From NCBI RefSeq assembly GCF_902497555.1, contig NZ_CABVGP010000003.1, positions 1,364,001 to 1,428,000 of the forward strand: a DNA stretch of 64,000 bases. The letters run 5' to 3'. The first letter of the stretch is position 1. Every line of letters begins with the position of its first letter. This DNA is from Amycolatopsis camponoti. Lineage in GTDB: Bacteria; Actinomycetota; Actinomycetes; Mycobacteriales; Pseudonocardiaceae. The notes under the pieces were generated by a model. The model had not been told where the DNA came from and searched no databases. It worked only from the letters and a program-made list of their open reading frames with translations. Both the position numbers and the translations under genes were made by a program. Below, in pieces: positions 27,793-31,499 of this stretch.

Positions 27793-28404
27793 GTGGGTCT
27801 CGACCTGCGGATCTGCCCGGCGTGCGGCGATCTGGCGGAGCGTCCCATCGTCGCGGGCACGGTCCTCACGTGCCGCCGGTGCGGCCACGAGTGGCCGTTC
27901 CGGAAGCTGCCGCTGTTCGCGCTGACCGGCCCGAGCGGAGCCGGGAAGTCGACGGTGGGGCCGCTGCTGGCGGCCCGGCTCGGTGGTGACGTCGTCGTGC
28001 TGGACCAGGACATCCTCTGGGTCGGTGCCCTGCGCGACGAGGTCGGCACGTTCCGGTCGGTGTGGCTGCGGATGGCGGCGATGCTCCACCAGAACGGCCG
28101 GCCGGTCGTGCTGTGCGGCACGGTCGCGCCACCGGAGTTCGAGCCGCTGCCGGAGAGGGCGTTCTTCAGCGAGATCCACTACCTGGCGCTGGTCGGCACG
28201 CCGGAGTCGCTGGGCAGGCGGCTGCGGGCGCGCCCGGCGTGGCGGGAGTGGGACGAGCCGCGGATCGAGGAGATGCTGGAGTTCAACGAGTGGCTCCGGA
28301 AGTCGGCACCGGAGCTGGGTGTCGACCTCTTCGACACCACGGACGTCTCTAGGGAGGCGACGGCCGACCACGCCGAGAAGTGGATCCGCGACCGGCTGCC
28401 TTAG
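27793..28404 (+). CDS. P-loop kinase/ATPase with N-terminal zinc ribbon
   Basis: A 203-residue protein with a zinc ribbon at the N-terminus (C8-x2-C11 and C27-x2-C30), then a Walker A motif GPSGAGKST at 46-54 of the AAA/small-molecule kinase type. A possible Walker B is VVVLDQDILW. It may phosphorylate a small substrate, but the substrate is not evident. The GTG start is 1 nt after the stop of the zinc-ribbon gene. It converges with the PIMT-type gene, overlapping by 4 nt. Confidence 0.75.
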   Translation: MGLDLRICPACGDLAERPIVAGTVLTCRRCGHEWPFRKLPLFALTGPSGAGKSTVGPLLAARLGGDVVVLDQDILWVGALRDEVGTFRSVWLRMAAMLHQNGRPVVLCGTVAPPEFEPLPERAFFSEIHYLALVGTPESLGRRLRARPAWREWDEPRIEEMLEFNEWLRKSAPELGVDLFDTTDVSREATADHAEKWIRDRLP

Positions 28405-29573
28405 CCGAGCGGCCAGGTGCGGCCGCCCGGTTCGTCGAGCCAGAACTCCTGGCGGTCGGCGGTGACCGTCACCCCGAACCGGTCGCGGTCCGGCTTGTCC
28501 AGCTCGCACCACTCGACGTAGGCCGCTTCGGCGAGCTCCCACAGGGCTCGCGGGCCGCCCTGGGCCACCTCGTCCGCGCCCGCGCGCTTGCGGTGGCGGA
28601 CCCACGAGCCGTCCGGGTGGACGAGCGCGACGCCGCTGTCGCCCGGGCCGCCCGCCGCGTGCGGGTCCGTGCCGTCGCCGTCGCGCACCGGCCGCACGCC
28701 CGGCATCGCCAGCCCGGCGAAGAACTCGAACTGCCGGCGCGGCTGGAGCACCGACGCCATCGGCAGCCGCGTCTGCTCCCAGTCGTCGCGTGACGGCATC
28801 GGCAGCGGATCGGCCTGCGCCAGCCGATGTGCGCGAAGCGGCATGAAACGGCCGTCGCGCGCGAGGACGCGGCCCTGCGCGGTGCCGTCCTCGCCGGCGA
28901 CGAGCCGGACCAGCCCGGCGCCGATCGGCCGGTTCAGCGTCGTCACGATCAGCCCGTCCGGGGTGGTCTGCGCCAGCCACGCGAGCGGGATCGAAGAAAC
29001 CGAAGCGGTGCACAGCACCCGGTCGAACAGCGTGCCCGCCGGGAAGCCGAGCGCGCCGTCGCCCACCGCGCACGTCGGCCGGTAGCCCGCCGCGGCCAGC
29101 CGCTCGCGCGCCTCGCCGGCGATCACCGGGTCTATGTCCACAGTGGACACCAGGCCGGCGCCGCAGCGGTGGCTCAGCAGCGCGGCGTTGTAGCCGGTGC
29201 CGGTACCGATCTCGAGCACGCGCTGCCCGTCCCGGACCCGCAGCTCCTCGAGCATGATCGCCATGATCGACGGCATGCTCGACGAGCTGGTCGGCGTGCC
29301 CGCCACCGGCCCGGTGCGCCGGGCGAGCTCCCAGCGGTCCGGGTCGTCGTCCAGCTGCGTGACCAGCACCTCGCGCGAGTAGACGGTCTCCAGCCAGCCC
29401 GGGTCGTCCCGGTCGACCGCCGCCCACAGCCCGCCCGCGGGTGCGAAGAACCGCGGCAGGAAGACGTGGCGCGGTACCGCTCGGAACGCGGCGATCCATT
29501 CCGGGGCGTGCAGGACGTCCTCGTCGAGCAGGTGCTCGACGAGGCGCCGCCGCAGCCGGGCCGAGCGCGTCAT
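28401..29573 (-). CDS. protein-L-isoaspartate O-methyltransferase-like methyltransferase
   Basis: A 390-residue PCMT/PIMT-type protein: the N-terminal AFRAVPRHVFLPRFFAPAGG, then SSSSMPSIMAIMLEELRVRD and motif I VLEIGTGTGYNAALLSHRCG. The C-terminal 180 residues form an extra domain with VHPDGSWVRHRK. Long PCMT proteins of this kind occur in actinobacteria, sometimes with ATP-grasp peptide maturation systems, but no ATP-grasp gene or precursor is visible here. TAACGT is 6 nt before the ATG (minus strand) and lies at the edge of the 96-bp repeat. Confidence 0.8.
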   Translation of the reverse strand: MTRSARLRRRLVEHLLDEDVLHAPEWIAAFRAVPRHVFLPRFFAPAGGLWAAVDRDDPGWLETVYSREVLVTQLDDDPDRWELARRTGPVAGTPTSSSSMPSIMAIMLEELRVRDGQRVLEIGTGTGYNAALLSHRCGAGLVSTVDIDPVIAGEARERLAAAGYRPTCAVGDGALGFPAGTLFDRVLCTASVSSIPLAWLAQTTPDGLIVTTLNRPIGAGLVRLVAGEDGTAQGRVLARDGRFMPLRAHRLAQADPLPMPSRDDWEQTRLPMASVLQPRRQFEFFAGLAMPGVRPVRDGDGTDPHAAGGPGDSGVALVHPDGSWVRHRKRAGADEVAQGGPRALWELAEAAYVEWCELDKPDRDRFGVTVTADRQEFWLDEPGGRTWPLG

Positions 29574-29582
29574 GCGACCACG

Positions 29583-29678
29583 TTACTGATCCGACCACGA
29601 GTAGGCCGACCCCCGAGCGGTGCGTAATCAAAGCTTCGAAGTCATCGGCCGTGACTGTGGTCGGATTGGTAACCATCG
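29583..29678 (+). repeat. 96-bp element with terminal inverted repeats, copy 1
   Basis: It begins with TTACTGATCCGACCAC (29583-29598) and carries the near-complement GTGGTCGGATTGGTAA at 29657-29672. By eye alignment it matches the reverse complement of 30979-31076 at about 75 of 98 positions. It contains the -10 of the leftward PIMT gene and lies upstream of the HTH gene. The two copies bracket the HTH-hbhA pair in inverted orientation. Confidence 0.75.
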
Positions 29679-29710
29679 AGCCCGGTAGCGGGTGAGGACG
29701 GCCACAGCGG

Positions 29711-29757
29711 CTATTGCAAGCAGAGTGCTTGCAATAGCTAGCACCCGCGCGTACCGT
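29711..29757 (+). promoter_or_regulatory. 12+12 bp operator and promoter of the HTH-hbhA operon
   Basis: CTATTGCAAGCA (29711-29722) and TGCTTGCAATAG (29726-29737) form a perfect inverted repeat with a 3-nt centre. A promoter TTGCAA (29729-29734) -N17- TACCGT (29752-29757) overlaps its right arm. A near-ideal Shine-Dalgarno AGGAGGTGA (29771-29779) precedes the ATG at 29784. The layout suggests repression by the HTH protein itself. Confidence 0.7.
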
Positions 29758-29783
29758 CGAAAGGGTCGCGAGGAGGTGACCGG

Positions 29784-30260
29784 ATGGCAGAGACCGGTGG
29801 GACGTCAGGATCCGGCAGCCCCATGGACAAGGTCGCGGACATCGCCTCCGACATCGGCGAGTACATCCGCCAGCAGCGCAACACCGCGAAGATCTCGTTG
29901 CGCCAGCTGTCGAAGCTCGCCGGCGTGTCCAACCCGTACCTGAGCCAGATCGAGCGCGGGGTGCGCAAGCCCAGCGCGGAGATCCTGCAGCAGATCGCGA
30001 AGGGCCTGCGCATTTCGGCGGAAGCGCTGTATGTGCAAGCCGGGATCCTCGATCTGCCGACGGGTGGTCCGGTGGGCGACGCGATCCGCGCCGACGCCGA
30101 GCTGACCGAACGGCAGAAGCAGGTCCTGCTCGACGTCTACGAGTCCTTCCGCCGGGAGAACGCCGCGGCACGGCCGGCCGCCGAGTCGTCTCCCGCTCCG
30201 GACACCGTGGACACCTCAGACACCCCAGACACCACTCCAGCCGCCAACACCAGGGAGTAA
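29784..30260 (+). CDS. XRE-family regulator, Rv0474-like
   Basis: A 158-residue protein with an XRE helix-turn-helix at about 25-85 (SLRQLSKLAGVSNPYLSQIE, then RGVRKPSAEILQQIAKGL) and an acidic, Pro/Thr-rich disordered tail. It is placed directly before the hbhA homologue, as Rv0474 is in M. tuberculosis. The strong Shine-Dalgarno and the palindromic operator upstream point to tight control, probably autoregulation. It ends 2 nt before hbhA. Confidence 0.85.
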   Translation: MAETGGTSGSGSPMDKVADIASDIGEYIRQQRNTAKISLRQLSKLAGVSNPYLSQIERGVRKPSAEILQQIAKGLRISAEALYVQAGILDLPTGGPVGDAIRADAELTERQKQVLLDVYESFRRENAAARPAAESSPAPDTVDTSDTPDTTPAANTRE

Positions 30261-30262
30261 CC

Positions 30263-30952
30263 ATGACCACGCCCAAGACCGAAGACGTCAAGAAGGCCGT
30301 CACCACCGCCCTCGACCAGGTCCGCACCCCGCTGCTCGCCGCGCTCGGCGCCGGCAACCTGGCCGGGCAGGCCGTCACCGACGCCGTGGCGAAGGCCCGC
30401 GAGAACGTGACCAAGAGCGGCGAGACCGCCCGCAAGAACCTGCAGGAGCTGCCGACCGACGTCGAGAGCCTGCGCGAGAAGCTGGACCCGGCCGAGCTGC
30501 GCAAGGTCATCGACGAGTACACCGAGGCCGCGCTCAAGCTGTACAACAAGCTGGCCGAGTCGGGCGAGCAGGCGTGGGACAAGTTCTCCACGCAGCCGCA
30601 GGTCAAGAAGGCCATCGAGCAGCTCGAGGAGGCCCTGACCACCGCGCAGGGCCAGGTCGAGGGTGTGACCTCCGAGGTCCGCGAGCGCGTCGACGGCGTG
30701 CTGGGCACCTTCACCAAGCGCACCCGCTCGGTCGGCGAGAAGACCGCCCGCAAGGTGACCGAGGTCGCCGGCGACGCCGCCGAGGCCATCGAGGAGCTGG
30801 GTGACGACGTCGCCCACGAGACCCGTTCCGCGAGCCGCAAGGTCGCGAACAAGACCGCTCCGAAGACGGCCACCCCGGCCCGTCGCACGACCACCGGCAC
30901 CACCACCAGCGCCGCCGCGAAGAAGCCGGCCGCGCCGAAGACCGACAAGTAA
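30263..30952 (+). CDS. hbhA: heparin-binding haemagglutinin homologue
   Basis: A 229-residue protein. A long helical, coiled-coil-forming region (about 1-185, e.g. LYNKLAESGEQAWDKFSTQP, LEEALTTAQGQVEGVTSEV) is followed by a Lys/Ala/Thr/Pro-rich basic tail that ends AAKKPAAPKTDK. This matches the design of mycobacterial HbhA, an adhesin and lipid-associated protein. In a free-living actinomycete the role may be in cell envelope or lipid-body organisation rather than adhesion. The Rv0474-Rv0475-Rv0476 gene order is kept. The tail is shorter in KKAAPA repeats than in mycobacteria. Confidence 0.85.
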   Translation: MTTPKTEDVKKAVTTALDQVRTPLLAALGAGNLAGQAVTDAVAKARENVTKSGETARKNLQELPTDVESLREKLDPAELRKVIDEYTEAALKLYNKLAESGEQAWDKFSTQPQVKKAIEQLEEALTTAQGQVEGVTSEVRERVDGVLGTFTKRTRSVGEKTARKVTEVAGDAAEAIEELGDDVAHETRSASRKVANKTAPKTATPARRTTTGTTTSAAAKKPAAPKTDK

Positions 30953-30978
30953 AGCCGAAGGCCGACCGGTAACCGAGC

Positions 30979-31076
30979 CGATGTTTACCAATCCGACCAC
31001 AGCCACGGCCGCATGGCTTCGCAGCGACGGTCACGTGCCGCGTGAGGGGCGGCCTGCTTTTGGCCGGATTGGTAAA
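30979..31076 (-). repeat. 98-bp element with terminal inverted repeats, copy 2 (inverted)
   Basis: Reverse-complement relative of 29583-29678. Its ends are TTTACCAATCCG (30984-30995) and CGGATTGGTAAA (31065-31076), a perfect 12-bp inverted repeat. It lies between hbhA and its terminator. Matching internal blocks include AGGCCG, TTCG/CGAAG and CGGCCGTG. Confidence 0.75.
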
Positions 31077-31088
31077 TAAGCCGTGAAC

Positions 31089-31129
31089 ACCCCGGCCCCG
31101 CCACCGCACCCCGGTGGCGGGGCCGGGGT
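31089..31129 (+). terminator. 17-bp stem terminator after hbhA
   Basis: ACCCCGGCCCCGCCACC (31089-31105) pairs perfectly with GGTGGCGGGGCCGGGGT (31113-31129), loop 7 nt. It separates the HTH-hbhA operon from the DUF2516 gene. Confidence 0.85.
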
Positions 31130-31159: not shown

Positions 31160-31453
31160 GTGCTGGTTGCCATCTGGATCCTCGAAGTAGTCCACTGGGG
31201 CAGCGCGCTGGTCGGGCTCTTCGCGTTCGTGCACGCGCTCCTGCAGCGCGCCGACGCCTACTCGGCGGCCGACCGCAAGACCAAGCCCATCTGGATGCTC
31301 ATCACCGGCGGCGCGACGCTCGCCATGGCGCTGTTCAGCGTGATGGGCCCGGGGATGATCTTCTGGGTGCCGGCCATGGCCGCGGCCCTGGTCTACATCG
31401 TGGACGTCCGCCCCAAGCTCATCGAGGTCCAGCGCGGCGGCTCCAACTGGTAG
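31160..31453 (+). CDS. DUF2516 small membrane protein, Rv0476-like
   Basis: A 97-residue protein with three hydrophobic segments (EVVHWGSALVGLFAFVHALL, WMLITGGATLAMALFSVM, MIFWVPAMAAALVYIVDVRP). It is the DUF2516 family that follows hbhA in mycobacteria. TAAGCT is 6 nt before the GTG (leaderless), so it has its own promoter after the hbhA terminator. The function is unknown. Confidence 0.85.
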   Translation: MLVAIWILEVVHWGSALVGLFAFVHALLQRADAYSAADRKTKPIWMLITGGATLAMALFSVMGPGMIFWVPAMAAALVYIVDVRPKLIEVQRGGSNW

Positions 31454-31499
31454 TCGCCGATGCCGGATCGGCGGCGATCGGCACGGTTAGGGTGGCGAG

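Follow-up and report, generated by a model that had tools for sequence, protein, structure and literature searches.

Two copies of a dispersed, MITE-like hairpin element of Amycolatopsis, very probably inserted independently on either side of an HTH-hbhA operon

Introduction

Among the described bacterial repeats that come closest to the element reported here, NEMIS (Correia), RUP and ERIC have TA targets, REP elements are 20-40 bp long and carry a GTAG or CGTC tag, and integron attC sites have end boxes of the form RYYYAAC and GTTRRRY. NEMIS (Correia), RUP and ERIC are named as MITEs in PMC3733652.

In this work we describe an element of about 106 bp, two copies of which bracket a small operon of Amycolatopsis camponoti in a stretch of 64,000 nucleotides; "the window" denotes this whole 64-kb stretch. 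The element resembles NEMIS, RUP and ERIC in size and in being non-coding, palindromic, intergenic, dispersed and limited to a lineage, and differs from them in that a tail of 13 nt extends beyond the palindrome at one end. It differs from them also in that its covarying outer stem takes in target bases, and in that no parent IS was found. With integron attC sites it shares an imperfect palindrome, an outer stem in which pairing is kept more than the letters, and insertion beside GTT/AAC, but its end boxes do not fit RYYYAAC/GTTRRRY, it has no cassette ORF and it occurs mostly as single dispersed copies. Unlike REP elements of 20-40 bp, it is 106 bp long, no GTAG or CGTC tag was seen in its consensus, and a Y1 transposase was found in none of the 20 genomes searched. 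What it has in common with REP and the RAYT/IS200-IS605 systems (see also PMC3733652) is a hairpin that carries a conserved tail at one of its sides and has target bases at its foot, and the want of a clear duplication.

Our literature search on MITEs or intergenic repeats of Amycolatopsis and Pseudonocardiaceae, on compensatory change in MITEs and on hairpin repeats found no description of the family among the papers listed, and none of the actinobacterial names looked for occurs in the text of PMC3733652. The family looks undescribed so far. It adds a family of mobile elements to a genus of antibiotic producers, and the present analysis provides a set of element sites with known empty alleles.

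Results and discussion

The two copies in the window

An earlier reading of the same DNA, the first-pass annotation, had reported an inverted match of roughly 75 of 98 positions around the operon, and recomputation bore this out: the reverse complement of 29583-29678 is identical to 30979-31076 at 75 of 98 aligned columns, with a local score of 48, against a maximum of 19 among 1,944 random 93-mers of the same window. By BLAST the two copies are 77% identical across 91 bp, and each one is a palindrome by itself. The limits derived from the family are wider than those given before: each window copy continues past its palindrome for another 13 nt, a tail that had gone unseen. Copy A lies at 29582-29686/7 on the minus strand, in the canonical orientation (palindrome 29582-29673, tail 29674-29686), and scores 92.6 bits with the covariance model; copy B lies at 30971-31076 on the plus strand (tail 30971-30983, palindrome 30984-31076) and scores 117.9 bits. 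They are the only two strong covariance-model matches in the 64-kb window, and two weaker rows are reverse-strand echoes of their palindromes.

The insertion that constitutes copy A measures about 105 bp and ends, in sense direction, 8 bp upstream of the ATG of a PCMT-type methyltransferase gene (28401-29573, minus strand, PF01135), between this gene and upstream sequence that is present in relatives. The bracketed operon consists of the gene of an HTH protein (29784-30260, plus strand, PF01381) and an hbhA-like gene (30263-30952, plus strand) with a sub-threshold Pfam match only, which takes its name from the first-pass annotation and from synteny. Copy B starts 18 bp past the stop of the hbhA-like gene and fills the space between this gene and an 18-bp stem at 31089-31129; the next gene encodes a DUF2516 protein (31160-31453, plus strand, PF10724). 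The two insertions would have altered the spacing and the transcript structure around the HTH-hbhA operon, copy A placing a strong predicted hairpin ahead of the methyltransferase and copy B another one 3' of hbhA.

Make-up and distribution of the family

The comparison started from at least 80 loci that encode proteins related to the HTH protein, the best of which belong to Amycolatopsis. When 20 Amycolatopsis genomes were searched with a 92-bp query, some of them gave many full-length matches (the tally of 20/20 genomes at E 10 includes chance matches). The alignment of 63 matches defines a unit of about 106 bp, made up of a 13-nt tail (TACTGTGCCGATC), which is conserved and present on one side only, and an imperfect palindrome of about 92 bp. 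Alignment A1 contains 58 of the 63 copies, without L110, whose right half is degraded, and without four orthologues of copies that were kept; alignment A2 contains 62. No coding capacity was seen, there being stop codons, frame-shifting gaps between copies and no conserved ORF, and with its length of about 106 bp the element falls within the 70-300 bp, non-coding, that we used to define a MITE.

The covariance model, with which 150 candidates per genome were scored, found matches in 11 of the 20 Amycolatopsis genomes, 5-19 apiece, a few of the rows being reverse-strand echoes of the palindrome. There was no match in the other nine (L007, L008, L010, L012, L013, L014, L016, L018 and L020), which include A. 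orientalis. When 49 further genomes, from 50 of the remaining 60 loci, were scanned with stricter filters, strong matches were obtained in three, namely 11 in the genome of L032 (A. acididurans), 40 in that of L037 (A. acidicola) and 34 in that of L049 (A. sp. GM8); a fourth genome, an Actinophytocola MAG, gave one weak match (E 0.006), and 45 gave none. The outcome that the first-pass annotation had named as refuting its reading, an element without further family members, did not occur: the genome-wide search in relatives turned up many dispersed copies. Phages, plasmids and viral contigs searched for the element gave no match.

The family is not uniform. A second subfamily has the core GGCGGA/TCCGCC instead of GGCCGA/TCGGCC, and a third (L336-L339, in G006) has the plan of tail and hairpin in common but a different core, and the superfamily may be wider than covariance model R1 shows. 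L277, in an Actinophytocola MAG, is a distant relative of the element. Two loci have adjoining copies. At L334 (G015:C5:16566-16881) three copies stand head-to-tail with a 105-bp period; this array apparently arose by local tandem duplication, and repeated targeting was set aside as its source. At L335 (G048:C1:801449-801627) two elements abut, the second seemingly inserted in the right junction of the first.

Empty sites and independent insertion

Whether the element is found at the same place in relatives had been proposed as a check, and the answer is negative: both window sites are empty in all six close relatives compared (L001-L005 and L015). For 37 other copies the 80-bp flanks were joined and sister genomes were queried with them. 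The queries recovered empty sites for 17 of 18 copies (none for L130) and for 15 of a further 19 (none for L085, L108, L132 and L146), together 32 of 37, although some of these are ragged and some come from a single distant relative. L081 and L101 have, letter for letter, the same 92-bp palindrome at two places in one genome, amid unrelated flanks, and this points to recent movement.

Among the loci compared, the nearest copies elsewhere are 82.6% identical to copy A and 87-88% identical to copy B, whereas A and B are only 77% identical to one another. As each is closer to copies in other genomes than to its partner, local duplication is an improbable origin of the pair. The occurrence of occupied and empty sites in relatives indicates that the element is mobile and MITE-like, and since both window sites are empty in relatives, the bracketing is due to two independent insertions. 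We therefore consider it highly probable that A and B were inserted independently of each other and belong to an approximately 106-bp, non-coding, MITE-like mobile element that is dispersed in part of the genus Amycolatopsis. The bracketing of the operon is best put down to chance, or else A and B are two out of several insertions that a tolerant stretch has taken up. The suggestion of the first-pass annotation that the element is of MITE type holds with respect to dispersed copies, empty sites, palindromic make-up and the absence of visible coding sequence, whereas proof of two other MITE hallmarks, clean duplication of the target site and a parent transposon, was not obtained.

Insertion sites and the search for a mobilising enzyme

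The copies are mainly intergenic (59 of 63), four extend over the end of a gene and no copy is internal to one, as judged with a crude codon-based gene caller and with orthologous copies included in the 63. Insertion occurs chiefly at T^AAC or T^AAA, the element sitting between the first and the second base of the core. In the 17 clean empty sites with a 4-bp core the first base is T in 16 and G in one, the second is A in 15, the third A in 13, and the fourth A in eight, C in seven and T in two. In six copies the offset is the same and agrees with insertion into the upstream gene's stop codon, a new stop then following in frame six codons on; the consensus of these insertions is YCADRY followed by the stop. 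The element apparently supplies an in-frame stop at some of the stop codons that it interrupts, which may explain why it is tolerated.

The length of the target-site duplication, another check that had been recommended, came out as 0 to 2 bp. TA stands at the right side of 38 and at the left side of 40 of the 58 copies, but on both sides together in only 25, and for this reason duplication of TA must be regarded as unproven. These counts bear on the strongest of the alternatives, according to which the element is a conventional MITE of the IS630 (Tc1/mariner-like) type that duplicates TA, with the ends CTGTGCC...TTAG between two TA dinucleotides and an IS630 transposase as its mobiliser. The frequency of TA at either single side is what such a MITE would show, TA is also found at the start of 14 of the 17 clean empty sites, and the short ends, TACTGTGCCGATC on the left and TACTAATCCGACC for the inverted right end, agree at 9 of 13 positions, as read off the alignment without a chance estimate; the long inverted repeat begins 13 nt inside one element end. 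Besides the 25 of 58 copies, two individual sites are at odds with it. L118 occupies a G-AAA site (G in three relatives) and has GA at the left and TA at the right, and L114, the top-scoring copy in the scan of the 20 genomes, has CA at the right although its empty site is TAAC in three relatives. IS630-type transposase genes are present in the genus, as described below, but at their 14 loci the end scores are far under those of real copies. Taking the two sides together, we regard an IS630 origin as possible, but lean against it.

Four enzyme families were searched, PF01797 (Y1), PF00078 (RVT_1), PF13358 (DDE_3) and PF04986 (IS91-type Y2). PF01797 was detected in none of the 20 genomes and in 5 of 14 control genomes, and an IS200/IS605 mobiliser was rejected on this ground. 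PF00078 was found in 21 of 26 genomes; the carriers G001, G003 and G005 lack it, and 11 of the 13 non-carriers searched have it. The reverse transcriptase does not track the element, and a link with it was dropped. PF04986 gave a single match in the 20 genomes, slightly above the cut-off and at a locus without element ends, and an IS91-type mobiliser was likewise discarded. PF13358 was found in 8 of the 20 genomes, at 14 loci. None of the 25 enzyme loci (14 DDE_3, 10 RVT_1 and one Y2) has element ends: the best end scores there were -8.5 on the left and 3.9 on the right, at most slightly above ten shuffles, as compared to 33 to 60 and 28 to 47 in real copies. When 14 genomes were searched with left- and right-end patterns for an autonomous long copy, no pair of ends that was clearly far apart appeared among the matches listed, and ten right-end strays that were inspected belonged to another subfamily, were truncated copies or were due to chance. 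Of 187 predicted neighbour proteins 98 were scanned; they fell in 132 families, the commonest being TetR_N with five, and the 25 of the 132 that were listed include no transposase or integrase.

Host bases in the stem

The partners of a triplet in the inner-left arm of the palindrome are as a rule host bases, and the same triplet is present in the empty site at 11 of the 17 clean sites. It is conceivable that the element moves as a single strand, similarly to IS200/IS605 or REP elements, and that pairing of the internal triplet with the target triplet helps in the choice of the site. Between the arm and the empty-site triplet 37 of 51 pairs are complementary, compared to 29.8 after shuffling (p 0.0006), and between the arm and the present flank 139 of 174 (58 copies), compared to 105.5, with none of 10,000 shuffles as high. 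Moreover, the arm has the matching base at L141, L122, L150, L145 and L143, whose unusual targets are, in that order, TACA, TACC, TACC, TACT and TGAA. Against this, the standard arm GTT is found despite an unusual target in L081 (TAGA), L084 (TCAC), L121 (TACT, one relative) and window copy A (TACC), the AAA sites L118, L125, L128, L129 and L142 have arms that are one base off, and in L089 (TAAG) the arm is mismatched at two bases. The enzymes expected for such a mechanism did not come to light either: no Y1 transposase was found in the 20 genomes, 11 of which are carriers (G032, G037 and G048 being outside this search), and the one IS91-type Y2 match was barely above the cut-off, the control genomes giving none. 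It must be noted that correction of the arm or the flank after insertion would yield the same complementarity. The present flank is shifted toward the arm, relative to the empty site, in L081, L084, L134, L088, L145 and window copy A, and in the opposite direction in L124; with cases on both sides, pairing before insertion and later correction cannot be told apart. Single-strand mobility of the IS200/IS605 or REP kind is thus, in our opinion, unlikely. We think it rather improbable, too, that a mobile hairpin chooses or stabilises its site by pairing of the internal and the target triplet, with host bases forming the foot of the stem and an enzyme other than Y1 moving the element. The covarying stem and the target bases nevertheless raise a testable question, namely whether hairpin pairing, beyond the end sequence, can guide insertion without Y1 transposases.

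Covariation of the stem

In the structure of 21 pairs 89.9% of the cells pair, compared to 82.2% in shuffles, the cells changed on both sides number 110 against a shuffled mean of 38.9, and none of 500 shuffles reaches any of the five covariation measures. If the partners are slid by one to three columns, pairing falls to 46% or less. Variation is concentrated in the outer stem (A1 columns 19-25 paired with 113-119); in the inner stem most letters are nearly fixed. Eight predicted folds have z values of -2.8 to -5.0, those of the window copies, on both strands, being -2.8 to -4.8. At orthologous sites 216 stem pairs are unchanged, 16 have a one-sided change with pairing kept, nine are compensated (these are not independent), 35 are broken and six are other; one pair of the L127 site, for example, occurs as G-C, C-G and A-T. 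The excess of broken over compensated pairs (35 versus 9) indicates that single copies decay, with some compensation.

To judge from these alignments, we infer that pairing of the stem is selected mainly for movement of the MITE-like element. An enzyme supplied in trans would recognise the hairpin and the conserved ends and put the element into TA-containing gene ends, sometimes into stop codons, and the stem would change in step across the family because pairing is required for mobility. The strong covariation, the stable predicted folds, the gene-adjacent position and the compensated pairs at shared sites are also what would be expected of a cis-acting RNA element, i.e. a terminator, a stabiliser or a regulator held by selection at each place. 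However, such an element should not be missing from its sites in relatives, nor should broken pairs outnumber the compensated ones in orthologous copies. The orientations relative to the flanking genes, 21 same/same, 20 opposite/opposite, nine and eight among 58 scorable copies, show no strand preference, and Rfam yielded no family at the gathering score in 10 loci and, in the surroundings of the window copies, no match even at E values up to 1. We consider selection for a local RNA function very improbable.

The operon and its flanks

The inverted arrangement of the window copies had also led to the proposal that conserved regulatory structures frame the HTH-hbhA operon, which is practically untenable, as L001-L005 and L015 have neither copy at either place and no second pair was seen in the homologous loci of the 80 genomes scanned. 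The first-pass annotation had further placed the promoter of the methyltransferase in one of the copies. Relatives without the element have the same methyltransferase start, hence this claim is unsupported and copy A need not contain the promoter; a search for a sigma-70-like promoter of the methyltransferase, which is a weak test, found none.

Where the DUF2516 gene reaches its stop codon there is a weak covariance-model match (31453-31488, 21.1 bits, E 0.0036), probably the remnant of a third element copy (31453-31493, minus strand). At the corresponding place L004 and L015 have longer degenerate copies (43.5 and 22.6 bits, respectively) and L002 a short remnant, the site is empty in L001 and L005, and L003 has other sequence there.

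Two further inverted repeats flank the operon. Ahead of the HTH gene, at 29710-29738, there is a 13-bp inverted repeat, GCTATTGCAAGCA/TGCTTGCAATAGC, whose core TTGCAAGC..GCTTGCAA is conserved among six relatives, so that the repeat may serve the HTH protein as an operator of its own gene. On the 3' side of the hbhA-like gene, the perfect 18-bp stem with a 5-nt loop at 31089-31129 is largely conserved among relatives and is a probable native terminator.
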